A stretch of 39,228 nucleotides of DNA from Herminiimonas sp. (lineage in GTDB: Bacteria; Pseudomonadota; Gammaproteobacteria; Burkholderiales; Burkholderiaceae_D), in assembly GCA_014377845.1 (NCBI GenBank), contig JACMOV010000223.1:1-39228 (forward strand). The letters run 5' to 3'. Below the pieces are notes generated by a model. It had not been told where the DNA came from. It made no database searches and worked only from the letters and a program-made list of their open reading frames with translations. The stretch's first letter is position 1. The number at the start of each line of letters is the position of its first letter. This document shows, in pieces, positions 2,340 to 34,487 of the stretch. The position numbers were made by a program, and so were the translations under genes.

Positions 2340-4438
<2,099 letters not shown>

Positions 4439-4501
4439 CCGGAATTGACTTGACCGCGGCCTTGCCTGGGCCGACACTTGAGGATATTACTTGGAGGTAA
4501 C

Positions 4502-6170: not shown

Positions 6171-6209
6171 AATTTTTGTTTTATGCACATAAGTAGTCAT
6201 CAGGCTTCG

Positions 6210-6268: not shown

Positions 6269-6307
6269 CTGGTGACCGGATTTCAACCGCATTTTGGAGT
6301 ATTTGCC

Positions 6308-7618: not shown

Positions 7619-7636
7619 CGCAGGCCCGCCCCTCTT

Positions 7637-7656
7637 CGGTGCAGCCGGCTGCACCG
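7637..7656. terminator. Perfect 20-base palindrome between convergent dadA and Lrp-family gene
   Basis: Arms CGGTGCAGCC and GGCTGCACCG form a strong GC-rich hairpin 19 bases after the dadA stop. No T-run follows on either strand, so it may stabilise the mRNA 3' end or assist Rho-dependent ending rather than act as an intrinsic terminator. Confidence 0.45.
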
Positions 7657-7753
7657 ATGCAGGGACCATGATCCAGATCGCATGCCGTTACGCGATCGCA
7701 GGCGGTGGCCTGTCATCCCGCGACGCGCCACCGGCGTTACGGCCTCATGCACT

Positions 7754-8263
7754 TCATTTTCCGGCGCGTACCTCGACCATGGCCGCCTTTTCATCGAAGG
7801 CGACGCGGGTTGCGAATTTCGCCCGCTTCATCGGAAAGCGGGACTGGAAATGACGCACGTTGCCGGAACCCGAGATCACCCTGCGCACGAACTGATAGTA
7901 AGCATCCATGTCAATGACATGCACCACCAGAAAATAATCATAGTCGCCCGAGACGAAGTAGCACTGCATGACCTCCGGCTCCTTGCCCATGCGCACCTCG
8001 AACTCGTGCATGTGGGCGTCCGACTGGTTCGTCAGCGACACTTCAAGGAACGCCAGCATGCCGTAACCGAGCGCGAATGGATCGACCAGGGCAACGTCGG
8101 CGGTGATGATGCCAGCCGTTCGCAGGTCACGGATACGCCGCAGACAGGTGGGTTGCGAGACATGCACCTTGGCGGCAAGCACGCGCGTCGAAATCTGATT
8201 ATCCTTCTGCAGCAGGTTCAGGATCTTGCGGTCGACTTTATCAAGCGAGTGGGATTTGGACAT
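7754..8263 (-). CDS. Lrp/AsnC family transcriptional regulator
   Basis: This 169-residue regulator has an N-terminal helix-turn-helix (LDKVDRKILNLLQKDNQISTRVLAAKVHVSQPTCLRRIRDL) and a C-terminal RAM ligand domain (residues ~75-150, with VMQCYFVSGDYDYFLVVHV). Position beside dadA and a branched-chain binding-protein gene suggests it senses an amino acid and controls one or both, and probably itself. The ATG at 8263 gives the usual N-terminus, but no clear Shine-Dalgarno is visible; a TTG at 8287 in frame is an alternative. The gap to the divergent gene at 8406 carries a dyad that could be its operator. Confidence 0.92.
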   Translation of the reverse strand: MSKSHSLDKVDRKILNLLQKDNQISTRVLAAKVHVSQPTCLRRIRDLRTAGIITADVALVDPFALGYGMLAFLEVSLTNQSDAHMHEFEVRMGKEPEVMQCYFVSGDYDYFLVVHVIDMDAYYQFVRRVISGSGNVRHFQSRFPMKRAKFATRVAFDEKAAMVEVRAGK

Positions 8264-8337
8264 GGGGAGCGGAGGGGGAATCGGCAAACTACGCGATAAC
8301 GCTTTCGTAACCTTTTTTTCTGTTGTACCGTCATGCT

Positions 8338-9646: not shown

Positions 9647-12028
9647 TCAATTGTTATTTTGTTGCGATGCCTGATTGACGACCTCACCGGCGGCTTCGGC
9701 CCCAACCTCCTCGGTCCAGCCGCCCTCTTCATCCGCAGCCGTACTGGTCGCCGAATCCGTTCCTGATTCAGCCCTCTTAGCGGTAGTTGCGGATTCGGTC
9801 GCCACCGTGTCCGTACTCGACCCATCCCGGATAGCCGCCCTTAACCCATTATTCAGCTTCGCAGCGGTAAGACGCGCGCCGTTTTCACTCGCTTCAATCG
9901 CAATTTTAGGTTCGAAAAACTTTTCATAACGCTTGTTGAAAAGCTCGGCTGTCATCACCTCGGTTTTCCCGTCGTGCCGAACATCAGTCGAAATACCCTT
10001 CAGGTACGAATCCAGATCCGTAGACATTTGCTTCAATTCGGCGTCCGATATACCCGAAGCACGCCACTGCTTGATAGCTGCCTTGACTTCAGTAGTTGAC
10101 GTCAGACTGGCAATATCAACCGCAGTCCCTTCAAATGGTATCGGCAAGTCATTCTTTATCGCCTGATCAAAATCTTTAGCGGTGGCGGTAGCGGTTTTTT
10201 CCGCACTCGCTGCTGTTTTCCCTGCGCTCGCCGCCGTTTTTTCTGCACCCGTGGCGGTTTTTCCTGCAGTCACGCCTGCCTTGACGGCTTTTGCGCCCTT
10301 CACGGCCGCCTTGGCAGCGGCAGCACCCACCCCCGGCGCGACTGCACCGGCGACGACGACGGCCATGCCGATACCGAATTCCTTGCCCGCCTCCTTGAGA
10401 TTCTTGTTGTCCAGAGCCGCCGTCGCGAAACGTCCCATTTCCGCGCCGGCGCCGGCTGCAATGGACATCACGCCAAAGATCTGGCTGAGGCCCGGGATTG
10501 GAATCAACTCCAGGAAACCCAATGCGATCGAAGCGTATTCGCCGATTTTCACCGCCACTTTCAAAATCGGTTCGAAAACCGGCTTGATGTATTTGTTCAA
10601 AATCGGATTGATGATGCCCTTGATGGCATTCCAAAAACCATGTCCGCCTTTGACATGCTTGATCTTTGGATCGTCCGCCGCACCGTTGACCATGTCCTGC
10701 GCGGCCTGCAATTGCGCTGCTGTCTGAGGCACCTTGGGGGCCGGCAACGGCGGCGGCGTCTTGCCGGCCGTTGTGAGCTTGCTGGCGAATGCCGTAAGAT
10801 CACGCTGATCAAACTTGCCATCGTCCGCCCTGTTCTTGCGGCTCGGGCGATGACCTTTTCGCGCGTTATCGAGCATGCCAAACAGCAGCGGGTCGTCGAG
10901 CAGTTTTTGCGCCGTCGCCTTCGCATCGGGAGCGGTATTGGGATCGTCGACCATTTTTTGGAGACTGCCGCGATTGATCACCCCGTTGCCCTGCATGAAC
11001 TCCTCTGGATTGGTCGTGAGCTTGTCCAGGGCGGCCGTTTCTTCATCAGTCAGGAAAACCGTGCTGCTGGTCCAGTCAAGCATCGCGCTCAACTTGACGG
11101 TACCGCTTTTCTCATCATGGGGAATCTGGTTCCATTCCGAGGGATTATCCAGATAGAACTGCGCTGCGGCGATCAGCTGCGGCGGTATTTTCTTGCCCTT
11201 CAGGTTACCGTTGACGATGTCTTGCAGCGTGGATTGGTCCAGCTTGCCAGGCAGGCTTTCGGAGTACAGATAGAATTCACGCTTTGCATCATTGGCGGTA
11301 ATCGGACGCGGTTCCTCTGAACTGGCGTCCTTAGAATCGCTCGGAACATAGAAGTCTGCGTAATTGTGTGCGAGCTCGGCGCTGTGCTGCTGCATCTCCG
11401 GCCAAGCGGCAATGTAACCGAGCTCCTTGTCTCCCATCAGACCATCGGTTTTCCCCATGCCTCCATCTTTTTTGCCTGCATCGAGTATCCGTAGCAGCTT
11501 TGGATTGTCCCTGATCGACTCGTAGGCTTTTTTCAGGTCAGGCGGCGTTTTCGGATTATCGATCCTCGATTGCAGATCCTTGACCTTCAGTGGCATCTTG
11601 TCGCGGTGATGCAGCAGGATCGAGAGCGTATCCATCTCGTCTGCACTCATGGCCGGATGACCACTGCCGTCGTCTACCGCGGGGGGTTCCGGTGCCTCCA
11701 GGGAGGCGGATGCGCTCGCGGCATCCGTCACCGGAACATCGGTTGCAGTCGCCACCGTCGAGTCGGTTGACGCGAATTCGTCAACGGGCGTTGTCAACGG
11801 TGCAGCAGCCTCAGGCGAGCAAAACTGGTCATACAAGCCCGTTCCCGCAGGCGACGGCGTAGCCAACCACGCTTGGAATGTGGAGTTGCTCGACCCCACC
11901 ACGCCGTCGAAAGCATCCGATACCGCCGGCGACGGGCTCCACGAAGTGCTTGTTGTTGGCTCAGTCGGGGAATCTGCCGCTGGCGCTGCGAAAAACGCCA
12001 TTGGGGAACTGATAGCGACGTCAGACAT
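9647..12028 (-). CDS. HrpF/NolX-like type III secretion translocon protein
   Basis: This 793-residue protein resembles HrpF (Xanthomonas), PopF (Ralstonia) and NopX/NolX (rhizobia), proteins secreted by type III systems that help form the pore in the host membrane. Residues 1-125 are Ser/Thr/Pro/Ala-rich with no Sec signal, as in secreted type III substrates. Three degenerate modules follow (about residues 129-215, 238-325, 328-420). Each has helices around NP or DDP turns and LxxLDxA followed by a Gly/Asp-rich loop such as ADDGKFDQRDLTAF. Two hydrophobic stretches come next (about 496-533 and 548-583), then a heptad tandem repeat (about 587-614) and a hydrophilic tail. GAGGA upstream supports the start, and a PIP-box-like promoter lies further upstream. 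Base composition is more AT-rich than its neighbours. No hrp/hrc genes are in view. Family assignment is by recalled motif pattern. Confidence 0.78.
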   Translation of the reverse strand: MSDVAISSPMAFFAAPAADSPTEPTTSTSWSPSPAVSDAFDGVVGSSNSTFQAWLATPSPAGTGLYDQFCSPEAAAPLTTPVDEFASTDSTVATATDVPVTDAASASASLEAPEPPAVDDGSGHPAMSADEMDTLSILLHHRDKMPLKVKDLQSRIDNPKTPPDLKKAYESIRDNPKLLRILDAGKKDGGMGKTDGLMGDKELGYIAAWPEMQQHSAELAHNYADFYVPSDSKDASSEEPRPITANDAKREFYLYSESLPGKLDQSTLQDIVNGNLKGKKIPPQLIAAAQFYLDNPSEWNQIPHDEKSGTVKLSAMLDWTSSTVFLTDEETAALDKLTTNPEEFMQGNGVINRGSLQKMVDDPNTAPDAKATAQKLLDDPLLFGMLDNARKGHRPSRKNRADDGKFDQRDLTAFASKLTTAGKTPPPLPAPKVPQTAAQLQAAQDMVNGAADDPKIKHVKGGHGFWNAIKGIINPILNKYIKPVFEPILKVAVKIGEYASIALGFLELIPIPGLSQIFGVMSIAAGAGAEMGRFATAALDNKNLKEAGKEFGIGMAVVVAGAVAPGVGAAAAKAAVKGAKAVKAGVTAGKTATGAEKTAASAGKTAASAEKTATATAKDFDQAIKNDLPIPFEGTAVDIASLTSTTEVKAAIKQWRASGISDAELKQMSTDLDSYLKGISTDVRHDGKTEVMTAELFNKRYEKFFEPKIAIEASENGARLTAAKLNNGLRAAIRDGSSTDTVATESATTAKRAESGTDSATSTAADEEGGWTEEVGAEAAGEVVNQASQQNNN
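10191..10274 (-). repeat. Four 21-base tandem repeats inside the HrpF/NolX-like gene
   Basis: Four imperfect 21-base units encode seven-residue repeats of the form A-(G/E)-K-T-A-x-x (AGKTATG, AEKTAAS, AGKTAAS, AEKTATA). They alternate G and E at one position and directly follow the second hydrophobic stretch. Copy number could vary by slippage. Confidence 0.85.
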
Positions 12029-18405: not shown

Positions 18406-18717
18406 CTAGAAAAGGTTTTCCTGGGGGGTGAGCGCGGCGTCCAGCACGGCGTGCATCACGCCGATCTTCTCCCGTACCGCAGCCATGGTCATGTCGGACA
18501 ACGGACCATCGGGCGCCTTGGTCGACAGCAGCTCGGCTGCGATGCCCAGGGCGGCGATCACGGCGATCCGGTCGTTTCCCTTGACCTTGCCCGCGTCGCG
18601 GATGGCGCACATGCGTTCGTCGAGATAGCGCACGGCCTGGTGCAGCTCCGCTTCCTCGCCGGCCTTGCATGACAACTTGAACGCCTGGCCCATGATCGAT
18701 ACGTCGAGCTGACTCAT
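18406..18717 (-). CDS. zapA: Cell division protein ZapA
   Basis: ZapA is a small cytosolic protein that cross-links FtsZ protofilaments at the division ring. The 103-residue product begins MSQLDVSIMGQAFKLSCKAGEE, the typical beta-strand/helix opening, followed by LHQAVRYLDERMCAIRDAGKVKGNDRIAVIAALGIAAELL and a C-terminal helix. It follows the ZapB-like coiled-coil gene by 10 bases and precedes 6S RNA, the classical order. Confidence 0.95.
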   Translation of the reverse strand: MSQLDVSIMGQAFKLSCKAGEEAELHQAVRYLDERMCAIRDAGKVKGNDRIAVIAALGIAAELLSTKAPDGPLSDMTMAAVREKIGVMHAVLDAALTPQENLF

Positions 18718-18727: not shown

Positions 18728-18973
18728 TCATGTCAGTTCCTCCTGGGATTCGGACGATGACGCTGGCTCATCCATGGCGTCCGGGTCGGGCAGGCGCGAC
18801 AGCAGCGCCGCAACCCGTTCATGGGCTGCCTGCATGCGCCGCAGCAGATCGTCGTTCTCGGCGCCGAGCGTTGCCGCATGCGCGCGCAGGTCCGCATTCT
18901 CGCGCCGCAGATCCTTGGCCAGGTCGGCCAGTTCGCCGACCTTTTGTGACAGTAGTTCGAAATCGGAAATCAT
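18728..18973 (-). CDS. ZapB-like coiled-coil protein
   Basis: This 81-residue protein is almost wholly a predicted coiled coil (MISDFELLSQKVGELADLAKDLRRENADLRAHAATLGAEN...), with an acidic Ser-rich tail (DEPASSSESQEELT). It sits 10 bases upstream of zapA in the same unit, which suggests a ZapB-type partner that bridges ZapA to the division ring; sequence alone shows only the coiled coil. I place the start at the ATG at 18973. A longer in-frame ATG at 19018 would put coding sequence across a near-consensus promoter, so I consider it less likely. The promoter position suggests a leaderless message. Confidence 0.82.
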   Translation of the reverse strand: MISDFELLSQKVGELADLAKDLRRENADLRAHAATLGAENDDLLRRMQAAHERVAALLSRLPDPDAMDEPASSSESQEELT

Positions 18974-19009: not shown

Positions 19010-19204
19010 CCGATTCAAGCCGGCCTTCCCGGTTTCGGTCAGCTTTGGCTGTTACCGCCTACAGTATCAACGGGAAGCACGCATGCTGGTGGACACCCGG
19101 ACCATGATGGATTATGTTCTCGAAGCAATCATCGGCTATGTGCAGCCAACCAGGAACTGGCATGCGCATCGCCTTTTCCGCTCCAGCATGCGAAAGAGAC
19201 CATC

Positions 19205-20893
19205 TTGAACAACCTCAGCGTTCGACAAAAACTTTTTCCTCGGATTTTTCGCGATCGTGGCGATCATCATCTGCCTGCTACTGGTCGCCTACAATAATTT
19301 CACGCGCCTGAGTCAGGCGAACGCTTGGGACAATCATACGTTGCAAGTGCTGCTGGCCGGCGATCAGGTCGAACAGGCTGCCGATCACATCCAGGGCGCC
19401 TACCTCGCGTTCCTGATCGGCGGCAGCGAGTCTGGCCTGGCCGACCTCGAAAAAACCGGGGTGAACTGGAGCAGTGGATCAAGGAAGCCAAGCGCCTCAC
19501 AACGGATAACCCCAACCAGCAGGCGCGGCTGATACAGATCGAAAACGATGCCCAGGAATGGTTTGCCGCGCGCGTTTTTTCCCGCATTGAAAAACGCCGG
19601 GAATTCAACAAGAAACTGATCACTGCCGACCAGTTCATGCACGATCCAATAATGACCGGCGGCTTTTCGCGGGTACAGGTCCTGCACAAGACGCTCGATG
19701 CATTCGAGGCCGAAGAAAAACGCCTCTTGGCCGAACGCAGCCAGGCGGCCAGTGAGTTGCGCCAGACAATGACGCTGGTGTTGATTCTGGGTGGGCTGTT
19801 GTGCGTCGTGCTGGCGGCAGTGATTTCGATCATCCTGTCGCGCCCCATCCTTGCGCCGCCGGGCAACCTTTCCCGCACGGTGGCAGCCATTGCCGCCGGC
19901 GACCAGTCCGCCCGGGCAACCGTGATCGGCAAGGATGCGCTGGGACGTGTCACGGAAGAGTTCAACCGCATGGCGCAGTCAATACAGGCCAACCAGCAGC
20001 GCGAACTCGATGCCACGAACACGCTCAAGAGCAAGGTCGATGCACTGCTGACCAGTGTCTCGCGCGGTGCGACCGGCGACCTGACGGGCAAGGTGATCGT
20101 CTCCGGCAGCGACGCGATCGGCCAGTTCGGCGATGGACTTTCGGCCATGTTCGACAATCTGCGTGGCCTGCTGATGAAGATACAGCGCGCCGGCATCCAG
20201 GTCACGACGTCGACCACTGAAATCGCCGCCTCCGCACGCCAACAGGAAGCGACCGGGGTCGAGCAGGCGCAGGTCAACATGAAGCGCATGGACGACACCA
20301 TGCAGAACATGGTCAATGCGACTGACTCGATCAATGCCAAGCTGGCTGCCTTGTCCGAGAAGGCCAGCAACATCAACAACGTACTGGTGACGATTACCAA
20401 GGTCGCCGACCAGACCAACATCCTGTCGCTGAACGCGGCGATCGAAGCGGAAAAGGCGGGCGACGCGGGACGCGGGTTCGCCGTGGTCGCTACCGAAATC
20501 CGACGTCTCGCCGACCAGACGTCGATAGCGACCTGGGACATCGAGCAAATGCTGAAGGAAATGCAGTCGGCGGTATCGGCCAGTGTCATGGGCATGGACA
20601 AGTTCTCCGATGAGATCCGGCGCAGCGTCGGTGAGGTACGACAGGTGAGCGAGCAGCTTTCCTCGGTGATCGTCCAGGTCCAGCAACTGCCGCCCCGCTT
20701 CGATGCGGTGCTCGAAGGAATGCAATCGCAATCGATCGGCGCCTCGCAGATTACCGAAACCATGATGCAGCTTTGCGAGGCTTCGCAGCAGACTGTCGAA
20801 TCGCTCAAGGCGACCAGCGATGCGGTCAACCAGTTGCAGCATGCGGCGCGCGACCTGCAGGCCAGCGTCGCCAACTTCTCAGTCAACGACTGA
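19205..20893 (+). pseudogene. wspA: WspA-type methyl-accepting chemoreceptor with two frameshifts
   Basis: This membrane receptor would drive the Wsp signalling complex that controls cyclic-di-GMP on surfaces. From a TTG at 19205 the frame reads NNLSVRQKL, then breaks at a T5 run (19233-19237). The true sequence continues one frame over (AIVAIIICLLLVAYNNFTRLSQ...) until a G4 run (19458-19461), where the original frame resumes (ELEQWIKEAKRL). An insertion and a deletion thus compensate; in between lie the first membrane span and half the periplasmic part. Downstream are a second membrane span, a HAMP domain and a full signalling domain. The hairpin tip reads ADQTNILSLNAAIEAEKAGDAGRGFAVVATEIRRLADQT and the WspA-like segment SAVSASVMGMDKFSDEIRRSVGEV follows. 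Unframeshifted length would be about 562 residues. Sequencing error in the two runs is possible. Confidence 0.85.
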
Positions 20894-20895
20894 TC

Positions 20896-21417
20896 ATGCA
20901 GGTCCTGGTGCTGCAACTCGCCGGCGTGCGCTATGCGCTGGAGACACGCCATGTCGTGCGCGTGCTGCCTGCAATGCGCCTGACGCCGCTGCCGCGCTGC
21001 CCGGCATACATTGCCGGCGTCATGAATCTGCATGGCACACCGGTACCCGTGCTCGACCTTGTGCGCATCGTGACGACCGCCAGGATCGAGTCGGACATGC
21101 AGGCTGCAACTGCCCGCGTGACCGATCCCGCCGGTAACGACGGCGCGTATTTCGACACCCGCATCGTCCTGGCGGAGTGTGGTCAGACCGGCGCTGCACG
21201 CAGCCTCCTGGGCTTGCGTGCAAAGCACGTGATCGGCATCCGCTCGATCGATCCGGCGGCGATCGCGCCATCCGGCGTGCGCGATCCGCACAGCGGGTTT
21301 CTCGGCCAGGTAGTCGGCAACGAACAGCCGATGCTGCAATTGATCACCCTGCAGCATCTGCTACCGGCGCATGTAGCCACATGGCTGTTCGACGCAGTCA
21401 CGGAAGCCGCATGTTGA
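20896..21417 (+). CDS. wspB: CheW-like coupling protein (WspB type)
   Basis: This 173-residue CheW-domain protein would link the WspA receptor to the WspE kinase. It starts MQVLVLQLAGVRYALETRHVVRVLP and has the conserved PAYIAGVMNLHGTPVPVLDLVRI loop, then a second half with LLGLRAKHVIGIRSI. The frame is intact. The ATG lies two bases after the receptor stop, and the stop overlaps the cheR start by seven bases (21411-21417), so the operon layout is preserved although its neighbours are damaged. Confidence 0.85.
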   Translation: MQVLVLQLAGVRYALETRHVVRVLPAMRLTPLPRCPAYIAGVMNLHGTPVPVLDLVRIVTTARIESDMQAATARVTDPAGNDGAYFDTRIVLAECGQTGAARSLLGLRAKHVIGIRSIDPAAIAPSGVRDPHSGFLGQVVGNEQPMLQLITLQHLLPAHVATWLFDAVTEAAC

Positions 21418-21969
21418 CAACGGCGCTGCAGACGATCGTGCAACGCGTCAGCGGACTGCACCTGAGCGCGCCCACCGTCTCGCGCGCCGCGCAGCGTCGC
21501 ATGGATGCAATCGCCGTGACCGGTCTTGCACCCTACATCGCGCGCATCCAGGCGGACCCGGTAGAGATGGCCGAACTGATCGAGCTTCTGGTGGTGCCGG
21601 AAACCTGGCTGTTCCGCGATCCGGAAGCGTTTGTCGCAGCCGCGCAGTTTGCCGTGCGCCGCCAGGCCGAGGTCGATCGTCCCCTGCGCATCCTCAGCCT
21701 GCCCTGTGCAACCGGCGAGGAGCCGTATTCCCTGGCGATGGCGATGCTCGATACCGGCTTCGCTTCGTACACAGTCGTTCGACATCATCTTCTGCCGTAA
21801 CCTGCTGATCTACTTCGATGAACCGACGCAGCGGCGTGCCATCGCAGTACTCGATGGCTTGCTCGATGCTGCGGGATTACTGTTTACCGGGTGTGCGGAA
21901 CTGCCGGTGTTTACAAGCCAGCGTTTCGACACCGCACAGTTGCCCCGCGCATTTGCATTGCGCAAGAAA
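21411..21969 (+). pseudogene. wspC: WspC-type CheR methyltransferase, internally deleted
   Basis: CheR enzymes methylate receptor glutamates using S-adenosylmethionine. The start MLTTALQTIVQRVSGLHLSAP and N-terminal domain are intact up to the SAM motif LPCATGEEPYSLAMAMLDTGF, then the frame runs to a stop at 21798-21800. The 3' half resumes in another frame right after the break (near 21770) as SFDIIFCRNLLIYFDEPTQRRAIAVLDGLL, a segment that normally lies roughly 80 residues further on. About 240 bases of the SAM-binding core are therefore missing. Homology ends at FALRKKAP near 21969, where sequence from a later operon gene begins. The usual C-terminal TPR part is absent. The protein cannot be functional. 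Confidence 0.85.
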
Positions 21970-22127
21970 GCCCCCGGGAGGCCGTGTTGCGGCTTGCAGC
22001 GCAACACGCCGGCGGCATGCTCCACATCGACATCAGCGACGACGGCCACGGCGTCGACGCGGAGCAGATCCGCAAAAAAGTCATCGCGCGCGAGACGGTG
22101 CAAGGCGTGCTGGACCGCGGTAGTTGA
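21966..22127 (+). pseudogene. wspE: Remnant of WspE-type CheA histidine kinase (ATPase domain scrap)
   Basis: About 54 codons resemble the ATP-binding domain of CheA/WspE kinases: ESPREAVLRLAAQHAGGMLHI then DISDDGHGVDAEQIRKKV. The DDGHG matches the G1 box (DxGxG), and the preceding ESP fits the GIExP that follows the N box. Everything before it (phosphotransfer and dimerisation domains) and after it (rest of the ATPase, CheW-like and receiver domains) is gone, and a stop at 22125-22127 ends the frame. It is fused directly to the wspC remnant, which means wspD and most of wspE were lost in one deletion. A second deletion removed the rest of wspE and wspF before wspR. Confidence 0.8.
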
Positions 22128-22207
22128 CCCTGCCGGTTGATCGAGACCGGATGCCATGATTAAAGTAGCGTCGCGAATGCGCCGATAAAGAGTCGAAGGA
22201 AAATTAA

Positions 22208-23218
22208 ATGGCCATTGCGAGCGGACACGGCGACAGTAACGACACGATATTTACCCCCTTCAAGGTTCGGGTACTGCTGATCGACGATCAGGTCATCACT
22301 GCAGAGGCGATCCGCCGCATGCTGGCCGATGAACTCGACATCGAGTTCCATTTCGTCGCCGATGCACAGGCCGCAGCAAACACGGCAATGCAGCTCAAGC
22401 CGACCGTGATCCTGCAGGATCTCGTGATGCCGGGCATCGACGGCTTCGAGCTGGTGCGGCAGTACCGCGCAACCGCCGAAACCCAGGACACCCCCGTCAT
22501 CGTTCTCTCGGCCAAGGAAGACCCCAAGCTCAAGGCGCAGGCATTCAATGTCGGCGCCAACGACTACCTGGTCAAGCTGCCGGACCGGCTAGAACTGATT
22601 GCGCGCATCCGCTACCATTCGGCGGCCTACATCAACCGGCTGCAGCGCGACGATGCATTCCGCTTCCTGCGCGAGAGCCAGCAAAAACTGGCCGACACCA
22701 ACATCGAACTGCAGAAGCTGGCCGCGCTCGACGGTTTGACCGGCATCTGCAATCGCCGCCGCTTCGACGAGGCGTTGAAGAATGAGTGGCACCGCGCGCG
22801 CCGCGACAAACGCCCGCTGTCCCTGGTGATGTGCGACATCGATCATTTCAAGGCATACAACGATTCTCATGGCCACCTGGCCGGCGACCTGTGCCTGAAA
22901 AAAGTGGCGGCAGTCCTGACCGAAAATCTGAAACGCCCGGCCGATCTGGCTGCGCGCTTCGGCGGCGAGGAATTCGTCCTGGTGCTGCCGGACACGGATG
23001 CGGCCGGCGCGGCGATCGTGGCGGAAAGCTGCCGCGATCGCGTGCAGTCGCTTGCGCTGGAATCACCGGCTGCCAACAAGGTCGTCACCGTATCGGTCGG
23101 CGTCGCCACCCTGATCCCGGAAGCGGCGTCGAATTACGACGACCTGATCGACCTGGCAGATCGCGCCATGTACGAAGCCAAGCGCGCCGGTCGCAACCGG
23201 GTGGCGCAGCTGCCTTGA
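22208..23218 (+). CDS. wspR: WspR-type response regulator diguanylate cyclase
   Basis: WspR makes cyclic-di-GMP from two GTP when its receiver domain is phosphorylated by WspE. The 336-residue protein is complete. The receiver spans residues 19-140, with acidic pair D26/D27, phospho-acceptor D71 in ILQDLVMPGIDG, and lysine in NDYLVKLPD. A helical linker follows, then a GGDEF domain (about 175-335) with DGLTGICNRRRFDE, the active motif GGEEF at 252-256, and an inhibitory I-site RPAD (R243-D246) five residues before it. Domain order, length and positions match recalled Pseudomonas WspR closely. GAAGGA upstream supports the ATG. It is the only fully preserved catalytic member of this operon, so it either acts orphaned or is controlled by another kinase. 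Confidence 0.93.
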   Translation: MAIASGHGDSNDTIFTPFKVRVLLIDDQVITAEAIRRMLADELDIEFHFVADAQAAANTAMQLKPTVILQDLVMPGIDGFELVRQYRATAETQDTPVIVLSAKEDPKLKAQAFNVGANDYLVKLPDRLELIARIRYHSAAYINRLQRDDAFRFLRESQQKLADTNIELQKLAALDGLTGICNRRRFDEALKNEWHRARRDKRPLSLVMCDIDHFKAYNDSHGHLAGDLCLKKVAAVLTENLKRPADLAARFGGEEFVLVLPDTDAAGAAIVAESCRDRVQSLALESPAANKVVTVSVGVATLIPEAASNYDDLIDLADRAMYEAKRAGRNRVAQLP

Positions 23219-23239: not shown

Positions 23240-26200
23240 TTAGTCGAACGGCAGCAGCGCGCCGTCTACCGTGATCAACGCGGTGCGGATGGCCGACTCA
23301 CCAACGACTGCCTGCAAGGCGCGGCGGTACTCCGCCAGCTGCCGGGCATGCGCGACCAGATCATCCGGTCCGGCGCTACGCTTGTAGTCGAGTATCCAGA
23401 ATTCATCATCGAACCGGACCAGGCGGTCGATCCGCATCACGACCCCATCTGCCATCACGTCGACTTCATTGTCGGCACTGCGAAACAGCGCCGGATCGAA
23501 GAAACGCCGCAGATGTGGCTGCGACAGGATGCAGCGCGCCTGGCCGCACGCAAGGGTTGCGGCATCGATCGAGCAGCTGAGCCAGTGCGCGGTCAATCCA
23601 GGCGGCGGTACGCTGACAGGCCAGGTCGATGCGGCCGTGATGCGCTCCATTAATCCATGCAACAGGATGCCCTCGCCAGCGGCTGCCTGCGCCGCTGCCG
23701 AGAGGGCCGGTGCAACCGTCTGCGCTGCGCTCGCTGGCGGCGCAAGCAGCGGCGGCGCGAACAAGGCAAGTGAAAAGAATCCCTCCTCCGTAGTGCCGGA
23801 AGGCTGCGCGGCAGCGACCTGCGGTGTGACCTGTGCGGCCGCCTGCAGCCGCGCATACCAGCTGTCTGCCACGACGCCGTCGGTTCCCGCCTTGCGGCCG
23901 CCTGCCACGCCGCTGATGATGAGCAGACGGCGCGCCCGCGTGGCGGCGACATACAGCAGGTTCCAGTCTTCCTGCTCTCGCAATTGTTCTTCCTGCTCAA
24001 AGAATGACGCCCGGACGATGCCGCGCTCGGCGCGCCGGCCGAAGGCAGAAAAATGCGTCGGCGCGGCGGCATCCTGCGGCCACACGCACAGCACGCCGGC
24101 ATCTTCCCGCGCCGCCTCGCTGTGATTGGCGTCGAGCAGCACGACGATCGGCGCTTCCAGCCCCTTGGCGCTGTGAATCGTCAGGATGCGTACCGCGTCG
24201 ATGCCGGCGTCGATCGCCGCTTCATCTGGCGCATCGCGCGCCGCGTTGGCTTGTAGCGCGCGCAGGGCATCGATGAACTTCGGCAGGCTCGGATAGCGGC
24301 CGCCGTCGAGATTGAGCGACAGTTCGATGAAGGCATTCAGGTTGCCGATTACCTGCGCGCGCTGCAGCGCCGTCGCCGATTGCGCGTAGCGCGCCACGAC
24401 ATCGCCCTGGGCGATCAGGATGTCGAGCAGGTCGTGCACCGGCAGGCGCGGGGCGGCGTTGCGCCACTGCGACAGCAATCGTGCCGCGCGCGCCAGCGCA
24501 TCGGCATCACGCGCGTCGCCGGTTTCGGAAACAACAGCCTGCAGGCGATGCCACCAGGTGTCTTCGGTGCGGCCGGCGAGCGAGATCAAGCCGGCGTCAT
24601 CCACGCCGAAGATCGGGCACTTGAGCACATGCGCCAATGCGCGATTGTCGCCCGGGGTGATCAGGAACGTGAGCAGCGCCACCAGATCGCTGACTTCCAG
24701 CGACTCCAGCAGCCCGCCGCGTTTGTCGGAGACGAACGGGATGCCAGCTTCGCGCAATGCCCGCTCGTAAGCAGCCAGGTGGGCGCGCTTTTTGACCAGC
24801 AGCATGACATCGGACCAGCGCGTCGGAGCAACCTCACGTGCAGCATCCGGCGCTGCGTGCGCATCCAGTTCGGTCCGCGCCGCCAGGATCGCCTGTGCGA
24901 CGGCAGCGCCCTCTTTGCGCCGGCGCAGGTCTTCCTCTTCCTCGCGCGGCATCGTCAGCGGGTCGCGCAGTTCGGCGATTGAAGCCGCCTGCTGCGCTGG
25001 CTTGGATTGCTCCTCCGATTCGCATGTGTCGGGTAGCGGCTTTAAAGCATCCGCACCATCGGACCCATCCGACCCATCGACGCTACCAGCGACCGCAACG
25101 TGGTCTTCTGCCGGGTCATCCTGTCCCGCCAGCGGCAGCCGCCACACCGCGCCGCTCTCCCCGGCCAGGGTGGTCTGCGCAAAATACAAGGGATTGGCGG
25201 CGAAGGTCTCATTGAGAACCGCAGTGATGGCGACGGCGTTGCGGCGAGTCTGACTGGTGCGCAGCACGCGTGCGCCCTGCGACTGCAGCAACGCGCGCGC
25301 CGCCACGAATACCCTGGGCTCGGCACGCCGAAAACGGTAGATCGATTGCTTCGGGTCGCCGACGACGAAAACGCTCGGGCGCGACGTATCGTCGCCGTAA
25401 GCCTCCAGCCAGGCGCGCACCACGCTCCATTGAAGGGGGTTGGTGTCCTGGAATTCATCGAGCAGGACGTGCCGGTAACGCGCATCCAGACGACTCTGCA
25501 GGTACGCCGCATGCTGCGCGTTGCCGAGCAACCGGTAGACATGCCATTCCAGGTCGGCGAAATCGAAGACCCGGCGCTCGGCTTTCAACGCCTGGTAGGC
25601 ATCCAGGAATGCGGCGGCAACCGTCATCAGCGCCGCGTTTACGGCGATCACGGTGCGCTCGTGGCTGCGCGCGCGCAGGTGCTGCAAGGCCGCGCCCACC
25701 GAGATGAATTCCTCCTCGAACCACGACTGCCCGGCGGCACCGGATTCGGCCTCCAGTGCCGCAATCAACGCCTTGGTGGCGGTGTTCTTGCGCGGCGCAT
25801 CCTTGGCATCGAAAAACTCGTTGCACAGCGCATCAAATGGCTCGATGCCGGCGGCGCCACTCAGGCTGGTTTCGATCGCGACCGCGCGCCGCTGATTGGT
25901 CGCCGTGCCCTTGCCGAGAAGCCGGGCAATCCAGGTGATACGCGCAACCAGCTGCGCGTCCTGCCAGAGCGACAGCCGCGCATCTTCATGCGCATCGATG
26001 CCGCACAGGTCGATCAGTTCATCCAGTGGCGCGTTTGCCTGTGCGGCGGCCCACCATTCGGCGCGCTTGGCGACGAAGGCGTCGAGCAGCGCCTGCGCCT
26101 GATGGTCGCCCACCAAACTGTAGAGCGTCTGCAGGGCGGTGCGCACCGGCGCGTTGGCGACGTCGTTGAGCAACTGCATGAAGCGGTGCGTGGTCTCGCT

Positions 26201-26749
26201 CAGCAGTTCCGCCGTGCCCTCGGTCAGCGCATAGCCGTGCGGTACACCGGAGGCCAACGGTGCAATCTGCAGCAGCCGCGCGAACCAGCTGTGGAAGGTG
26301 TCGATCGACAGCGCCTGCGGACTCGACAGAATGCGCTCGTACAGCCCACGCGCCACCGGCATCAGCCGCGCCAGGTCCGCCGGTGCGATGCCGCGCTCGC
26401 ACAGCAGCGTCGCAACATCCGCATCGGGCCGCAGGGCGAGGTCACGCAGCAGCGCCATCAGCCGCTCCTGCATCTCCTGCGCCGCCTTGCGGGTAAACGT
26501 GATGGCAAGCAGCCCGGACGGTTCGCAACCGGCCAGCAGCAGGCGCAGCATCCGCGCCACCAGCAGCCAGGTCTTGCCGCTGCCGGCACAGGCTTCCACC
26601 ACCACCGAGACCGCCGGGTCGCAGGCCGCCCCGATGAAGGCTTCCGCATCGGCCGCCGCGCCGTCGATCGTGTAGGCCAACGCCGCCATGCGCGTATCGG
26701 CAGTCACCGGACCGGCATCGAGGTCACCATCCCGGCCGGCCAGCTTCAC
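23240..26749 (-). CDS. addA: AddA-type helicase-nuclease subunit (UvrD superfamily)
   Basis: AddA, with AddB, processes double-strand breaks for RecA-dependent repair. It combines a 3'-5' helicase with a C-terminal nuclease. The product is about 1169 residues. Motifs in order: Walker A ACAGSGKT (K59), ITFTRKAAQEMQERL, the Walker B box LLDEFQDTNPLQW, GDPKQSIYRFRRAEP, LTIHSAKGLEAPIVVLLD, YVAATRARRLL, and the PD-(D/E)XK nuclease end with HGLMER and WILDYKRS. I place the start at a GTG at 26749 that overlaps the addB stop by four bases (GTGA) with AAGGGG upstream. GTG 26752, GTG 26767 and ATG 26689 are alternatives. It is convergent with wspR, 21 bases apart. Confidence 0.93.
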   Translation of the reverse strand: MKLAGRDGDLDAGPVTADTRMAALAYTIDGAAADAEAFIGAACDPAVSVVVEACAGSGKTWLLVARMLRLLLAGCEPSGLLAITFTRKAAQEMQERLMALLRDLALRPDADVATLLCERGIAPADLARLMPVARGLYERILSSPQALSIDTFHSWFARLLQIAPLASGVPHGYALTEGTAELLSETTHRFMQLLNDVANAPVRTALQTLYSLVGDHQAQALLDAFVAKRAEWWAAAQANAPLDELIDLCGIDAHEDARLSLWQDAQLVARITWIARLLGKGTATNQRRAVAIETSLSGAAGIEPFDALCNEFFDAKDAPRKNTATKALIAALEAESGAAGQSWFEEEFISVGAALQHLRARSHERTVIAVNAALMTVAAAFLDAYQALKAERRVFDFADLEWHVYRLLGNAQHAAYLQSRLDARYRHVLLDEFQDTNPLQWSVVRAWLEAYGDDTSRPSVFVVGDPKQSIYRFRRAEPRVFVAARALLQSQGARVLRTSQTRRNAVAITAVLNETFAANPLYFAQTTLAGESGAVWRLPLAGQDDPAEDHVAVAGSVDGSDGSDGADALKPLPDTCESEEQSKPAQQAASIAELRDPLTMPREEEEDLRRRKEGAAVAQAILAARTELDAHAAPDAAREVAPTRWSDVMLLVKKRAHLAAYERALREAGIPFVSDKRGGLLESLEVSDLVALLTFLITPGDNRALAHVLKCPIFGVDDAGLISLAGRTEDTWWHRLQAVVSETGDARDADALARAARLLSQWRNAAPRLPVHDLLDILIAQGDVVARYAQSATALQRAQVIGNLNAFIELSLNLDGGRYPSLPKFIDALRALQANAARDAPDEAAIDAGIDAVRILTIHSAKGLEAPIVVLLDANHSEAAREDAGVLCVWPQDAAAPTHFSAFGRRAERGIVRASFFEQEEQLREQEDWNLLYVAATRARRLLIISGVAGGRKAGTDGVVADSWYARLQAAAQVTPQVAAAQPSGTTEEGFFSLALFAPPLLAPPASAAQTVAPALSAAAQAAAGEGILLHGLMERITAASTWPVSVPPPGLTAHWLSCSIDAATLACGQARCILSQPHLRRFFDPALFRSADNEVDVMADGVVMRIDRLVRFDDEFWILDYKRSAGPDDLVAHARQLAEYRRALQAVVGESAIRTALITVDGALLPFD

Positions 26750-29574
26750 CACGCCCCCTTGCGGCACAGGCCGCGTACGTCACAGTACTGGCAGACCGAT
26801 TCGACACCGGAGGCGCGCAGACTCGCGCCCTCGGAAATCGCCTGCATCGCATTGCCGATCTGGCGTTGCAGCCGCCGCTGCCAAGCGGCGTAATCCGGTG
26901 CGGGTACGGCGGCGATCTTGTCTTTCTGCGGTTCGAGCGAGATGTAGCTGGCGCTGGCGGTCGGCGCGGCCGACAGCAGGCCGTAGAACGGCAACTGGTG
27001 ATCTTCGCTGGCATCGATTTTCTTGCGGAGTGCAGTGACGCTGCTGGTCTTGTAGTCCAGCACCGCAACCTCGCCATCGGCATTGCAGTCGACGCGGTCG
27101 ATGCGGCCATGGAGCAGGATTCCACCAGTGCTCCAGCGCAGCGGATGTTCGCGCCATTGTTCGCCAGCGACGAATTGCCAGCCGTCGGCCTCGCGAGCAC
27201 TGGCCCAGTCGAGATAGGCCGGCTGCGCCTTTTGCCAGCGGTCGCGATAGCCGAGCGCCGCAGCGCTCTTTGCAAGCTCGATGCCGAACACTTCGTCCGT
27301 GATCGCCTGCAAGAAGGCACTGTGCGGCGCCTGTCCGATGACACCATCGCGCAGGCCGGTGTGATAGCGGTTCAGGATCTGGTGCAGCCAGTCGCCGTAG
27401 TCGCGCTTTTCCAGTTGCTCCGACAGTTCATCGAGACCGGACAGGCCGAGCATGCGGGTGGCGAAGAACTGGTACGGGCAGGCGACCAGGCTGGCATAGC
27501 CGCTGGCCGAGAGTTTCTTCGGCAGCAGATGCGGCGCGGCCGGCGCAGGCATGACCGGCGGTGTGGCCATCATGCGGATCGACGGCAGCGCCGCGCGATG
27601 CTGCGGCAGCGGCGCGTGCGATACGGGCGATACGGGCGATACGTGCGATACGGGCGATACGGGCGATCCGCGCAGCAGCGCCAGGTCGAGCCGCGCGATC
27701 CAGTTGCTGACCGGGTTGGGCTGGCCATCGCGATGCGCCTGCCAGGACAGGACCACGAGCGGATTGGTCGACACCAGTTCGGCAAAATCGCGCAGTTGCT
27801 GCAACTGCCGGGATTCCGCCGTCGGCAGGCCGAGTTCGCGCCGTACCGCGTTGGCAAAGAACAGGGTTTCGCTCGCGGTCGACGGCAGGTGGGTTGCGTC
27901 CGCACCGACCACCAGCACCGCATCGAAGCGGCGCAGATGGGTGCCGTTCAGGGGCAGCATGACCACCCTCCGATCGGCGGCCAGCGGCCGGAACGGCGTC
28001 GACTCCATCTGCAGGCTGACGCAGGCGCGCCATTCGGCAAATGAAAAGCTCTGGTGCAAACCGGTGCAGGCGTCACCGATCATGTCCAGCATCGCCTTGA
28101 CCTGCACGCCGGCCGCATCTTCCGCGTACGCTGCGCCGACGCCGAAATCATCGAGCGCGGCAGTCGTCAATGCCAGCCAGCCGCCGATCGTGTGCCGCTC
28201 CCGAAAGCCCTGTGCCTGGGTTGCGAGTTGCTGCATCCAGTCGCGCAACGGCCCGTCCGGCACCGCGGCTGTCACGCTGCGCCAGCCGCCGAGAACGTTT
28301 TGACGCCGCAGCGCCAGTTCGATCGCCATCACCTGATCGGCCTTGTCGTCGGCTGCAGCAAGCAGGAATGGCGACTTCAGGAAGTCGAGCAACGCAGTGC
28401 TTTCTGCACGCGAGGTGACGACGTCGAACCAGGCGGCCAAGGTAGCGGCAGCGCGGGTGGTCGACAGCTTCCAGCCGGTTTCGTCATCGACCACGACCCC
28501 GGCGCGTTGCAGCAGCGCGCGGATACGGCGTGCCGTGACGCGGTCCTGCGCCACGATGGCGATCGCGGACTTGCCCTGCTGGAGCCAGTCGACGATGGTC
28601 TGCGCACCTGCCTGCGCTTCGTCTTCGAGACTGGCGGCGGGATACACGGACAGGCAATCGGGCACTGCCGCAGTTCCAGCGGTGTACTCAACCGATACCG
28701 GTTCCTGCGGATTGTCGTCGAACAGGTCTTGCTGGGCGGTCGTGATTGGCCGCATTTCCGGGAGCGCAAGCAGCTCGGGCCATGCGCTCGCAAACGCCGG
28801 TTCGATCGCCGCCAGGCGCCAGTCAAGGAGGATCTGCAATACCGGTTGCCGGTTCGACCAGGCATCAAGAAACGCCTGCGCAGCCGGATCCGGCGCAACA
28901 GGCGCAACCCAGATCAGGGGCACGCGGGCGTCCGCAGCCAGCGCCAGCATCCGGCCCAGACGGTCGACCAGGGGATCGTCGGCATCGAGCTGGGTTTTCC
29001 AGACCGACCACACGAGTTGCGCTTCATCGGAAAGCACCTCACGCGCCATCGGCGGCAATTGCATGAGCGCCGACTCCCAGCGGGCCTCCGCACTGTCGGG
29101 TTCTCTCGCCATCGCCGGCCACAGTGCGGCGGTCAATTCATCGGACAAGGCCAGCAGCGTCTGTGCCAGCGGCAGCAGATCTGTATTGCGGCGGGCGGTG
29201 AACAGTTTTTTGAGCCAGGCATGCTGGCGCAGTTCTGCATACAGCGCCAAGAGCCGCTGGTTGCCGGCCATTCGCACGGCCGCCGCGGTACGTTCACCAT
29301 CCGGTGGCTGCTGGTCCAGCCATGCCTGCATGGTGCAGATGCGCGGCGGCAGGAAGGCGCCGCCGAGGTGACCGGCGAGCGCCGAACGCAACTGCTGCGC
29401 ATGCCCCAGCGTCGGCACCACCACCCGCAGTTGCGACAGGTCGGCGGCACCAGCCGCGCCGCTGCCCGCCGCATCCTGGCCGGCGAACAGCAGGGGCAGC
29501 GTGTCGAGCAAGCCGCGCGCCGCCGACTGCCAGTAGCCGGCGCCCGGTGCGATCGTCAGTGGGGGGAGATGCAT
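26746..29574 (-). CDS. addB: AddB-type nuclease subunit with iron-sulfur cluster site
   Basis: AddB is the second subunit of the AddAB recombination enzyme. It has a degenerate helicase fold and a C-terminal RecB-type nuclease. The 942-residue product has an N-terminal part lacking a usable Walker A. In the last third are the first cluster cysteine (LVACPYQFFATRMLGL), the nuclease core HGRIDRVD and VLDYKTSS, and the trailing cysteines CQYCDVRGLC, the arrangement of Fe-S nucleases of this family. The gene precedes and overlaps addA, giving an addBA operon on the minus strand. No clear Shine-Dalgarno precedes the ATG at 29574. A 9-base tandem repeat encodes the linker just before the nuclease domain. 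Confidence 0.9.
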   Translation of the reverse strand: MHLPPLTIAPGAGYWQSAARGLLDTLPLLFAGQDAAGSGAAGAADLSQLRVVVPTLGHAQQLRSALAGHLGGAFLPPRICTMQAWLDQQPPDGERTAAAVRMAGNQRLLALYAELRQHAWLKKLFTARRNTDLLPLAQTLLALSDELTAALWPAMAREPDSAEARWESALMQLPPMAREVLSDEAQLVWSVWKTQLDADDPLVDRLGRMLALAADARVPLIWVAPVAPDPAAQAFLDAWSNRQPVLQILLDWRLAAIEPAFASAWPELLALPEMRPITTAQQDLFDDNPQEPVSVEYTAGTAAVPDCLSVYPAASLEDEAQAGAQTIVDWLQQGKSAIAIVAQDRVTARRIRALLQRAGVVVDDETGWKLSTTRAAATLAAWFDVVTSRAESTALLDFLKSPFLLAAADDKADQVMAIELALRRQNVLGGWRSVTAAVPDGPLRDWMQQLATQAQGFRERHTIGGWLALTTAALDDFGVGAAYAEDAAGVQVKAMLDMIGDACTGLHQSFSFAEWRACVSLQMESTPFRPLAADRRVVMLPLNGTHLRRFDAVLVVGADATHLPSTASETLFFANAVRRELGLPTAESRQLQQLRDFAELVSTNPLVVLSWQAHRDGQPNPVSNWIARLDLALLRGSPVSPVSHVSPVSPVSHAPLPQHRAALPSIRMMATPPVMPAPAAPHLLPKKLSASGYASLVACPYQFFATRMLGLSGLDELSEQLEKRDYGDWLHQILNRYHTGLRDGVIGQAPHSAFLQAITDEVFGIELAKSAAALGYRDRWQKAQPAYLDWASAREADGWQFVAGEQWREHPLRWSTGGILLHGRIDRVDCNADGEVAVLDYKTSSVTALRKKIDASEDHQLPFYGLLSAAPTASASYISLEPQKDKIAAVPAPDYAAWQRRLQRQIGNAMQAISEGASLRASGVESVCQYCDVRGLCRKGAW
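27618..27671 (-). repeat. Six 9-base tandem repeats in the addB linker
   Basis: Six units of GCGATACGG (third unit ends in T, last one diverged to GCGATCCGC) encode a Pro-Val-Ser/His-Val-Ser tripeptide repeat in front of the nuclease domain. The unit length keeps the frame, so copy number could change without breaking the gene. Confidence 0.9.
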
Positions 29575-32789: not shown

Positions 32790-33662
32790 ATGAGTTTGTT
32801 AGTCCGAATCAACATCGCACTGGTCTTGATCTTTCTGGTCGGCGCGTCTGCCGCAGGATGGGTCTCCAATACCATCCTGGTCGACAACGCCAAGCGCGAA
32901 GCGATCGATCAGGCGCGACTGATGATGGAGAGCGCCAGTGCGGCGCGCAGCTACACCTCCACGGAAATCCAGCCGTTGCTGGAAGGCCAGCTGCAATCCG
33001 TGTTCCTGGCGCAGAGCGTGCCGTCCTACGCGGCAACGCAGAACATGAACAAGCTGCGCGAAACCCATCCCGAATACGGCTACAAGGAAGCGACCCTGAA
33101 TCCGACCAATCCGCGCGATCGGTCCGCCGATTGGGAGCGTGACATCATCGACCACTTCCGCAACAACGACACGCAAAAGGAAATGATCGGCGAACGCCTG
33201 ACGCAGACCGGCCCGGCATTGTTCCTCGCGCACCCGCTGCAGATCAATGACGGCAAGTGCCTGGCTTGCCACAGCACGCCGGCCGCAGCGCCGGGGCCAA
33301 TGCGGGTCAAGTACGGTGAAGCCAACGGCTTCGGATGGAATCTGCATGAAATCGTCGGCAGCCAGATCGTCTCGGTCCCGCTCGCCGCCGCGCTCAAAAA
33401 GGCCGATGCGACCTATCGGGTGTTCATGCTGTCGCTGGCGGGGCTGTTCGGCCTGCTGTTCATCAGCATCAACGCCCTGGTTCACCTGATGATTCTGCGG
33501 CCGATGGGCAAGATCGCCCGCCTGGCCGAACAGGTCAGCAGCGGCGACATGGCGGCGCCGGCGTTTGCCACGAGCGGAAACGACGAGATCGCCAAGCTCG
33601 GACGCGCCTTCGACCGCATGCGCCGCAGCCTGGAAAAATCGCTGGCCATGCTGCAGTCCTGA
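32790..33662 (+). CDS. Membrane c-type haem sensor: Tll0287/DUF3365-like domain plus HAMP, no output domain
   Basis: This 290-residue protein has an N-terminal membrane anchor (about residues 5-27) and a periplasmic domain (28-208) of the Tll0287/DUF3365 type, with a c-type haem motif CLACHS (C157, C160, H161). A second membrane segment (about 210-234, MLSLAGLFGLLFISINALVHLMI) and a HAMP domain (about 232-285, LRPMGKIARLAEQVSSGDM...DEIAKLGRAFDRMRRSLEKSL) follow. It then stops. Proteins of this build usually continue into a kinase, GGDEF or receptor output domain; here there is none. A good ribosome-binding site (AGGAG) precedes the ATG. The next gene, 18 bases on, encodes a cytosolic TIR protein, which could be the separate output. 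Redox or gas sensing is inferred from the haem motif. Confidence 0.85.
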   Translation: MSLLVRINIALVLIFLVGASAAGWVSNTILVDNAKREAIDQARLMMESASAARSYTSTEIQPLLEGQLQSVFLAQSVPSYAATQNMNKLRETHPEYGYKEATLNPTNPRDRSADWERDIIDHFRNNDTQKEMIGERLTQTGPALFLAHPLQINDGKCLACHSTPAAAPGPMRVKYGEANGFGWNLHEIVGSQIVSVPLAAALKKADATYRVFMLSLAGLFGLLFISINALVHLMILRPMGKIARLAEQVSSGDMAAPAFATSGNDEIAKLGRAFDRMRRSLEKSLAMLQS

Positions 33663-33680
33663 CAGGCCGGCACGACGATC

Positions 33681-34487
33681 ATGAGCGCCAGCGTCTTCAT
33701 CAGCTACTCCAACCTCGATCGCATGGTCGCCGAGGCGCTGTGCAGCGCGCTCGAGGCCAGCGGTACGCGTTGCTGGATCGCGCCGCGCGACATTTCGCCA
33801 TCCCGCGAATGGGCTGAAGAAATCATCGACGGCATCAATGGCGCGCAGGTGATGCTGCTGGTGTTTTCGAGCCGCTCCAACGGCTCGCCCCAGGTGCGGC
33901 GCGAGATCGAACGCGCCATCCACAAGGAAGTACCGGTCATCCCGTTCCGCATCGAGAACGTGATCCCGACCAAGAGCCTCGAATACTTTCTCAGCGCGCA
34001 GCACTGGTTCGATGCCTTCGAAGCGCCGGTCGACACTTACCTGCCGCGGCTGTGCGACCTGATCGTCCGCCTGTGCAAGACCAGCGCAGGCCAGGCCACC
34101 ACGCAGGTCCCCGCAGCCGATCGCGGCGTGCCCTTCACGGGCAATCCGTACGCGACGTTTGCAGCCATGCCGGTGCCTGCTGCACCTGCGCCACCTGCCG
34201 CACCGGCTGCCGCGCCGGTTACGTCTTTCGCCGCCACCGCATCATCGGGGCGAGCAACGGAACCGGCAACCGGCGTGGCGCGCAACGGCTTTCCGGAAGC
34301 CTTTCTGGCCCTGCTCGAAACCCAGCTTGCCGCCTACATCGGTCCGATCGCCCGGATCATCGTGCGCAAGTCGGCCGCGCGCACCACCGACCAGCAAAGT
34401 CTGCTTGCCGCGCTGGCAAGTGAGCTCGACATGCCAGTCGAGCGCACGGCATTCCTGGCGGCCTGCCGTCAACGGCTCGACCATTGA
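33681..34487 (+). CDS. TIR-domain protein with extra C-terminal helical domain
   Basis: This is a 268-residue cytosolic protein. Residues 3-130 form a TIR domain: SVFISYSNLDRMVAEALCSALE, CWIAPRDISPSREWAEEI, AQVMLLVFSSRSNGSPQVRREIERAI, and VIPFRIENV...LEYFLSAQHWFDAF. E75 (in VRREIE) sits where NAD-cleaving TIR enzymes carry the catalytic glutamate. A Pro/Ala-rich linker (about 145-198) leads to a conserved-looking C-terminal domain (about 203-268, AFLALLETQLAAYIGPIARIIVRKSAARTTDQQSL...). I recall this domain from the ends of bacterial Ser/Thr kinases and cyclases; its function is unknown to me. It follows the haem sensor by 18 bases and precedes rpmE2. NAD cleavage, a cyclic signal or pure scaffolding are all possible. 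Confidence 0.88.
   Translation: MSASVFISYSNLDRMVAEALCSALEASGTRCWIAPRDISPSREWAEEIIDGINGAQVMLLVFSSRSNGSPQVRREIERAIHKEVPVIPFRIENVIPTKSLEYFLSAQHWFDAFEAPVDTYLPRLCDLIVRLCKTSAGQATTQVPAADRGVPFTGNPYATFAAMPVPAAPAPPAAPAAAPVTSFAATASSGRATEPATGVARNGFPEAFLALLETQLAAYIGPIARIIVRKSAARTTDQQSLLAALASELDMPVERTAFLAACRQRLDH

Follow-up and report, generated by a model that had tools for sequence, protein, structure and literature searches.

We analyzed a stretch of 39,228 nucleotides from Herminiimonas sp., hereafter the window, which makes up the entire contig C143, one of 231 contigs in a 3.36 Mb draft genome (G000; completeness 96.3, contamination 3.0). A first-pass annotation, made from the letters alone, had described positions 19205–23218 as a decaying Wsp chemosensory operon with an intact WspR diguanylate cyclase at its end. 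This region was compared by tblastn with the intact wspABCDEFR operon of another genome of the same family (G237, locus L122, arranged argG-wspABCDEFR), and the window was searched with the Pfam and NCBIfam profile libraries. The two approaches agreed: the profiles recognized HAMP and MCPsignal, CheW, CheR, a CheA/HATPase scrap, and Response_reg with GGDEF, and the tblastn E-values of the pieces ranged from 5e-9 for the wspE scrap to 1e-147 for wspR, far beyond chance. As far as sequence comparison goes, this confirmed that the region is a wspABCDEFR operon in ruins, read in the order A-B-C-E'-R and closed by a 336-codon open frame for WspR (Table 1), just as had been described.

Table 1. Coordinates of the wsp remnants, of wspR, and of the flanking genes in the window.
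Feature	Position	Strand	Observation
zapA	18406..18717	-	Left flank; ortholog adjacent in G001 (L121), G002 (L137), and g24 genomes G115, G206, G224
zapB-like (zapB')	18728..18973	-	Left flank; Pfam ZapB E 1.6e-5, below its cut-off; G001 and G002 ortholog at the same place
wspA 5' remnant	19205..19439	+	Two frames, break near 19230; tblastn to WspA residues 12-79, 50% identity over 19236-19439
wspA main remnant	19466..20893	+	HAMP and MCP signalling domain, other frame; 41-codon in-frame deletion on one arm
wspB (CheW-like)	20896..21417	+	Open, full length, strongly diverged; 41% to reference; Pfam CheW E 2.2e-16
wspC (CheR), N-terminal part	21411..21758	+	50% to WspC residues 4-110; Pfam CheR E 5.6e-9
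wspC, C-terminal part	21769..21984	+	Other frame; 51% to WspC residues 187-260; Pfam CheR E 7.2e-12
wspE (CheA), ATP-binding scrap	21987..22103	+	tblastn E 5e-9 to WspE 378-430, stop inside; NCBIfam CheA E 6.6e-5
wspR	22208..23218	+	Receiver, stalk, GGEEF diguanylate cyclase; intact 336 aa open frame; phmmer to 3bre E 6e-110
addA	23240..26767	-	Right flank; comes after wspR in G059 (g24), where the locus is intact
addB	26746..29574	-	Right flank; same synteny as addA

The damage differs from gene to gene. wspA gave two tblastn matches, 19236–19439 in frame 3 and 19466–20887 in frame 2, and its first codons, read by eye, share their frame with a TTG at 19205; two frame breaks were counted overall. 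The frameshift had been recognized before, but a further lesion had been missed, since in the main piece one arm of the signalling hairpin is 41 codons short, the remainder to the end being full length (205 vs 206 residues). A one-sided deletion of such size would spoil the hairpin of a chemoreceptor. wspB had been held to be the only whole gene besides wspR, and it is indeed full length (match at 20896–21408), but 31% of its sites that are invariant in six relatives are changed. wspC was matched at 21429–21758 (frame 3) and 21769–21984 (frame 1), the pieces covering positions 2–56 and 134–191 of the CheR profile: the first 110 residues and residues 187–260 of the reference are present, and residues 111–186, including the S-adenosylmethionine-binding core, are missing, in line with the initial description. 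Directly abutting wspC, the wspE scrap runs from residue 378 to about residue 416, starting at 21987 in frame 3, and then meets a stop, past which the alignment continues to residue 430. The scrap is thus real, yet it covers about 39 codons and not the 54 or so first proposed, and Pfam HATPase_c reached an E-value of only 0.029, below its cut-off. For the fragments at 21411–22127, tblastn, Pfam CheR, and NCBIfam CheA all agreed on an identity as CheR and CheA. The reported absence of wspD and wspF was borne out as well: no wspD match was found in the window at 1e-3, and the wspF query matched only the wspR receiver. wspR was matched over 22238–23203 with 69% identity. In all, there are at least five separate lesions, whose order is not readable, and they do not show the loss to have been "stepwise", the word that had been applied to it. 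A functional Wsp system, with wspA-F intact, is no longer encoded here (wspA, wspC, and wspE are damaged, and wspD and wspF are missing), nor is a WspE kinase with Hpt, ATPase, and receiver domains, of which only the ATPase-domain scrap remains. By itself, the remnant is an ordinary pseudogene cluster.

A search of the G000 genome for another intact wsp set found none. The window was the sole operon-scale DNA match, and the rest of the genome gave only short DNA matches, to methyl-accepting chemotaxis protein (MCP) or GGDEF parts. WspF had no match at 1e-60 among the seven candidates scored, and the one CheB gene, on C203, is separated by 3.6 kb from a CheA match. Four places matched the CheA dimerisation family above cut-off, all of them only 30–38% identical to WspE references; WspE identity among intact operons of the family is 52–94%. 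These results agree with the claim that the kinase and the methylesterase of WspR are gone. On C73 (L157:5800-8603), a CheZ-CheA pair stands without an adjoining MCP, CheR, or CheB match; CheA genes similar to that of C73 were seen on C179 of G000 (L158) and on C190 (L160) of G001, a genome of the same genus.

The site itself is shared with other genomes. The locus zapA-zapB'-wsp-addAB-trxA-rho is common to G000 and genus g24, in which G059 shows wspABCDEFR-addA-addB-trxA-rho, and G115 and G224 show zapA-zapB'-wspABCDEF-addA-addB-trxA-rho, with flanks that match the window. Elsewhere in the family, argG adjoins wsp in 8 of 14 wsp-bearing comparison loci and was not seen in the other six, some of which are cut by contig ends. 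In the WspR tree, G000 and G001 grouped with G059 and outgroups (support 97), and in the WspA tree, G000 stood beside g24 and outgroups with weaker support (82 and 49). Gene order, homology, and an orthologous site all point to a Wsp operon by descent, one that was probably inherited vertically at this site. The window resembles the Wsp R-system of beta- and gammaproteobacteria, as outlined in the sections of Kessler et al. 2021 (PMC8552884) used here, in its order A-B-C-(E)-R, its families, and its 3' wspR, and departs from it by the lack of wspD and wspF and by the broken A, C, and E genes. We also noticed a tandem duplication of wspA before wspB in three g41 genomes (L124, L125, and L141).

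Three genomes of this genus are present in our collection, G000, G001, and G002 (completeness 89% for G001 and 86% for G002), and each shows a different state of the locus. G000 has the wreck, wspR, and addAB. G001 has zapA-zapB'-wspR-trxA-rho, with about 150 bases separating the zapB' frame from wspR, and encodes an intact WspR of 338 aa; wspA-F were not matched on its 15 kb wspR contig, addAB was absent between wspR and trxA (L121:2892-3500), and a search of the genome for addA at 1e-40 was negative. G002 has zapA-zapB'-addA-addB-trxA-rho on one contig that lacks wsp genes, and its genome gave no match to WspR at 1e-60. Judged by the aligned blocks of window 2336–8299, which are 81, 81, 83, 75, and 70% identical to G000 in G002 and 76, 75, and 82% in G001, G002 looks nearer to G000 than G001 does, but the zap stretch (80% for G002 vs 83% for G001) and the GST gene (79 vs 86%) gave the opposite signal. 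If G000 and G002 are sisters, the array would have been lost independently in G001 and in G000, and G002 would later have lost wspR. G001 also carries two other chemosensory clusters, C108 and C304, with CheA, CheW, MCP, CheR, and CheB; at 28–38% identity to Wsp references, their CheA and CheB were ruled out as relocated Wsp proteins. C108 (L174) contains CheA, two MCPs, CheW, CheR, CheB, and receivers; G000 shows one CheB gene only.

We then turned to WspR. The match of G000 WspR to chain 3bre, which we take to be the P. aeruginosa WspR of De et al. 2008, extended over 315 residues. The protein has the receiver, stalk, and GGEEF architecture, its phosphoacceptor and pocket residues D26, D27, D71, S101, and K123 are all present, and the alignment confirmed the previously noted D71, GGEEF motif (252–256), and RxxD I-site (R243/D246). 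In 51 aligned WspR rows, wherein G000 and G001 appear twice each, GGEEF was kept in every row, and the first acidic position was an aspartate in 49, both exceptions being the single G001 gene. Indeed, G001 WspR has lost the metal-binding aspartate equivalent to D26, and the proline after D-L-V-M is also changed; the catalytic and inhibitory sites are retained. If a pseudo-receiver is a receiver missing at least one of DD, D, T, and K, then G001 WspR is one and G000 WspR, with its five canonical residues, is not. According to the part of a survey of pseudo-receivers consulted here (PMC12632262), ordinary receivers are 100% acidic at the first position of the pair, and G001 WspR resembles the roughly 20% of pseudo-receivers that are non-acidic there.

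Selection on wspR was estimated with a self-written codon model (GY94 type, F3x4), with tip omegas for G000 and G001. The tip estimates of omega were 0.073 (G000) and 0.074 (G001), with a background of 0.106, and a value of 1 was rejected on both (2dlnL 47, p 7e-12, for G000; 38, p 6e-10, for G001). The likelihood profiles excluded omega above about 0.13 (2dlnL 2.96 and 2.59 at 0.12, 6.2 and 5.5 at 0.15, for G000 and G001, respectively). The receiver (omega 0.03–0.04) and the GGDEF domain (0.09–0.10) were both constrained on both tips. This showed that wspR is under purifying selection on the G000 and G001 tips. Special conservation of the receiver in orphan WspRs was considered and rejected, since intact systems, too, usually show a higher identity in the receiver than in GGDEF.

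For the remnants, amino-acid branch lengths and counts of changes at sites invariant in six relatives were used instead of omega. Relative to the rest of the tree, the G000 amino-acid branch was 0.136 for wspR, as against 0.254 and 0.207 for the two wspA pieces, 0.319 for wspB, 0.261 and 0.333 for the two wspC pieces, and 0.246 for wspE; hence all six remnant pieces evolved faster than wspR. At invariant sites, wspR was changed at 10% in G000 and 11% in G001 (background 1–9%). The values were 36 and 11% for the wspA pieces (backgrounds 0–8 and 0–4%), 19 and 22% for the wspC pieces (backgrounds 0–11 and 0–6%), and the 31% of wspB stood against a background of 2–7%.

Our reading, which we hold with some reserve, is that the sensory half of a probably inherited Wsp operon was recently destroyed and that WspR was retained as an uncoupled, useful diguanylate cyclase. 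What is observed are the lesions, the common locus, the intact WspR, and the purifying selection acting on it. WspR would still be made and would still make cyclic di-GMP, the level of which would be set by WspR concentration and by product feedback at the I-site, and not by the lost WspA-WspE phosphorelay. It would have been retained because its cyclase output, or a new input into its receiver, is useful. G001 may represent the same process further along, with wspA-F gone at the locus and a receiver that has lost part of the phosphorylation pocket. That a relative without the sensor half still has wspR suggests that the enzyme can be useful alone. Biochemical work on P. aeruginosa WspR, in the portions of De et al. 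2008 (PMC2270323) relevant here, bears on this: receiver active-site mutants of the purified protein act like the wild type (unpublished data cited there), and expression level affects WspR activity in cells, so that WspR on its own, its I-site being intact, could be a self-limited cyclase. The same portions mention that structural work proposed a phosphorylation-independent regulation of WspR. G000 WspR is alike in its receiver-stalk-GGEEF build and its I-site; unlike in P. aeruginosa, no Wsp receptor, kinase, or methylesterase was found in the G000 genome.

A number of observations weigh against this reading. Phosphorylation regulates WspR in vivo (PMC2270323, same portions), and G000 WspR keeps the five phosphotransfer residues. 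Scans for promoters and terminators returned no signal that clearly exceeds chance. The contrast between wspR and the remnants is uneven: the wspE scrap, changed at 15% of invariant sites, falls inside its background of 0–17%, the 11% of the main wspA piece hardly differs from the 10% of wspR, the pooled remnants differ from wspR at conserved sites only at a borderline Fisher p of 0.056, and remnant omega was poorly estimated because several pieces show saturation on the G000 branch, with fitted lengths up to the bound. The main wspA piece also runs for 474 codons without an in-frame stop. In simulations of neutral drift (400 per setting), it stayed stop-free in 7% of runs at 0.2 substitutions per codon and in 2.5% at 0.3; since such a long stop-free piece is improbable after that much drift, the G000 wreck is young, and the intact WspR there may merely reflect too little time. 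As a matter of fact, wspR itself stayed stop-free at 0.2 substitutions per codon in 26% (G000) and 16% (G001) of runs. An intact WspR in G000 alone therefore proves little, and the argument that the gene was kept rests on G001. There, the wspA-F deletion may be old or recent, and a foreign kinase from C108 or C304 might serve WspR. Finally, the loss of wspR in G002 shows that the gene is dispensable.

The first alternative is that wspR just comes last in the decay and that nothing keeps it in G000. We consider this unlikely, but it deserves a serious hearing: the youth of the wreck, the absence of wspR from G002, and the unchanged phosphotransfer residues in G000 are all as it would have them. 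It fits poorly with G001, where wspR is intact under the low omega given above though the rest of the operon has gone from the locus, and with a further genome, G016, that also has a solitary WspR-like gene. The first-pass annotation had left open whether WspR was kept or was last to decay; G000, being a young wreck, does not decide the matter, G001 tips it towards "kept", and G002 shows that wspR can be lost. A second alternative, which we find improbable, is that WspR was re-wired to another kinase, for example, the CheA of the C73 CheZ-CheA pair, that of C179, or that of the C203 cluster. The four CheA-type places in G000, the CheZ-CheA pair at C73, the phosphotransfer residues and constrained receiver that WspR keeps, and the two other chemosensory clusters of G001 would suit such a switch, but nothing was found that links WspR directly to another kinase, the conservation of its receiver relative to GGDEF does not exceed that of intact systems, and G001 WspR has lost the first acidic residue of its pocket. 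The wreck is probably not an assembly artefact, and we regard a collapsed or mis-joined contig, or sequencing errors, as highly improbable: the genome is a 231-contig draft and the wspA frame breaks fall at short homopolymers, but the large neighboring genes are open (1175, 942, and 700 aa), the sole reported direct repeat of at least 14 nt in 19200–22300 (18 nt, 89%) lies inside wspB, off the junctions, and base errors cannot remove wspD, wspF, and most of wspE, which were not found on other contigs.

We next considered how often WspR and its array are separated across the family, in a set of 295 genomes (WspR at E <= 1e-85, WspF at E <= 1e-60, seven candidates scored per genome). WspR was found in 117 genomes and WspF in 120. 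Five genomes had WspR without a WspF match (G000, G001, G016, G182, and G185). The WspR-like gene of G016, 58% identical to Ralstonia WspR, had no WspF match in its genome and no other wsp match in 19 kb. G185 was rejected as an orphan case, part of wspF being present at a contig edge. G182 (L154:3593-10834) has wspABCDE followed directly by wspR and lacks only wspF, with no WspF match in its genome; it is a natural wsp system without its methylesterase. Conversely, 8 of the 120 WspF-bearing genomes had no WspR match (loci L161/L170 in G115, L163 in G219, L164 in G144, L167 in G081, L168 in G206, L169 in G224, L165 in G113, and L162 in G151), and no WspR was seen beside wspF at the fetched loci. 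In G081, G115, G144, G206, G219, and G224, each of wspA-F was at least partly detected; the G113 contig ends inside wspE, and G151 shows only the 3' part of wspE and wspF. The gene after wspF in G081 and G151 encodes a PAS-GGDEF protein, with an additional EAL domain in G081, and is a possible replacement output.

Across the order, a draw of 399 genomes yielded 14 with WspR and 13 with WspF. G621 had a WspF-like protein (E 8e-62) and no WspR match. G648 was rejected as a second orphan WspR, its WspR lying inside a rearranged cluster. In this single-contig genome of 2.6 Mb, the cluster (L173:3398-11618) comprises CheR, WspR, a double CheW, MCP, CheA, and CheB. In the sections of Kessler et al. 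2021 (PMC8552884) already referred to, all 794 wspA-F synteny clusters come with wspR or wspH, and none lacks WspB or WspD; the synteny filter used there would miss a solitary wspR. None of the literature titles found on Wsp or WspR evolution, orphans, pseudogenes, and gene loss describes a solitary WspR, at the level of the title.

We tentatively suggest, without committing to it, that Wsp is a pair of separable modules that repeatedly split in this family. WspR might become free-standing and phosphorylation-independent and move towards a pseudo-receiver (G000 early, G001 late, possibly G016), and elsewhere the array might remain alone and signal to something else, as in the eight genomes above; the window would then have caught the first route in the act. 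The WspH system of Burkholderia, as presented in the same sections (PMC8552884), is likewise a case of Wsp uncoupled from cyclic di-GMP synthesis, but there a hybrid kinase replaces WspR and the array is intact, whereas in G000 WspR was kept and the array lost. The dependence of WspR on the phosphorelay is unsettled in the portions of PMC2270323 cited above, where phosphorylation-independent regulation is proposed yet phosphorylation acts in vivo, and three states within one genus (a wrecked array with wspR, a locus with only wspR, and a locus with neither) amount to a natural experiment on it. Should a WspR on its own prove active and under selection, the production of cyclic di-GMP would be able to persist after its sensor is gone, and a different output would be expected for arrays that lack WspR. 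What makes the case interesting is that in a sister genome WspR has survived its operon while losing part of its phosphorylation pocket, and that other members of the family show the opposite separation.

Two further features of the window lie away from the wsp locus. On the minus strand at 9647–12028 is a NolX/HrpF-like gene (Pfam NolX E 5e-90), whose neighbor resembles a branched-chain amino-acid binding protein; the NolX/HrpF family is linked to type III secretion. On the plus strand, 32790–34487 encodes a protein with Tll0287-like and HAMP domains, directly followed by a TIR_2-domain protein.

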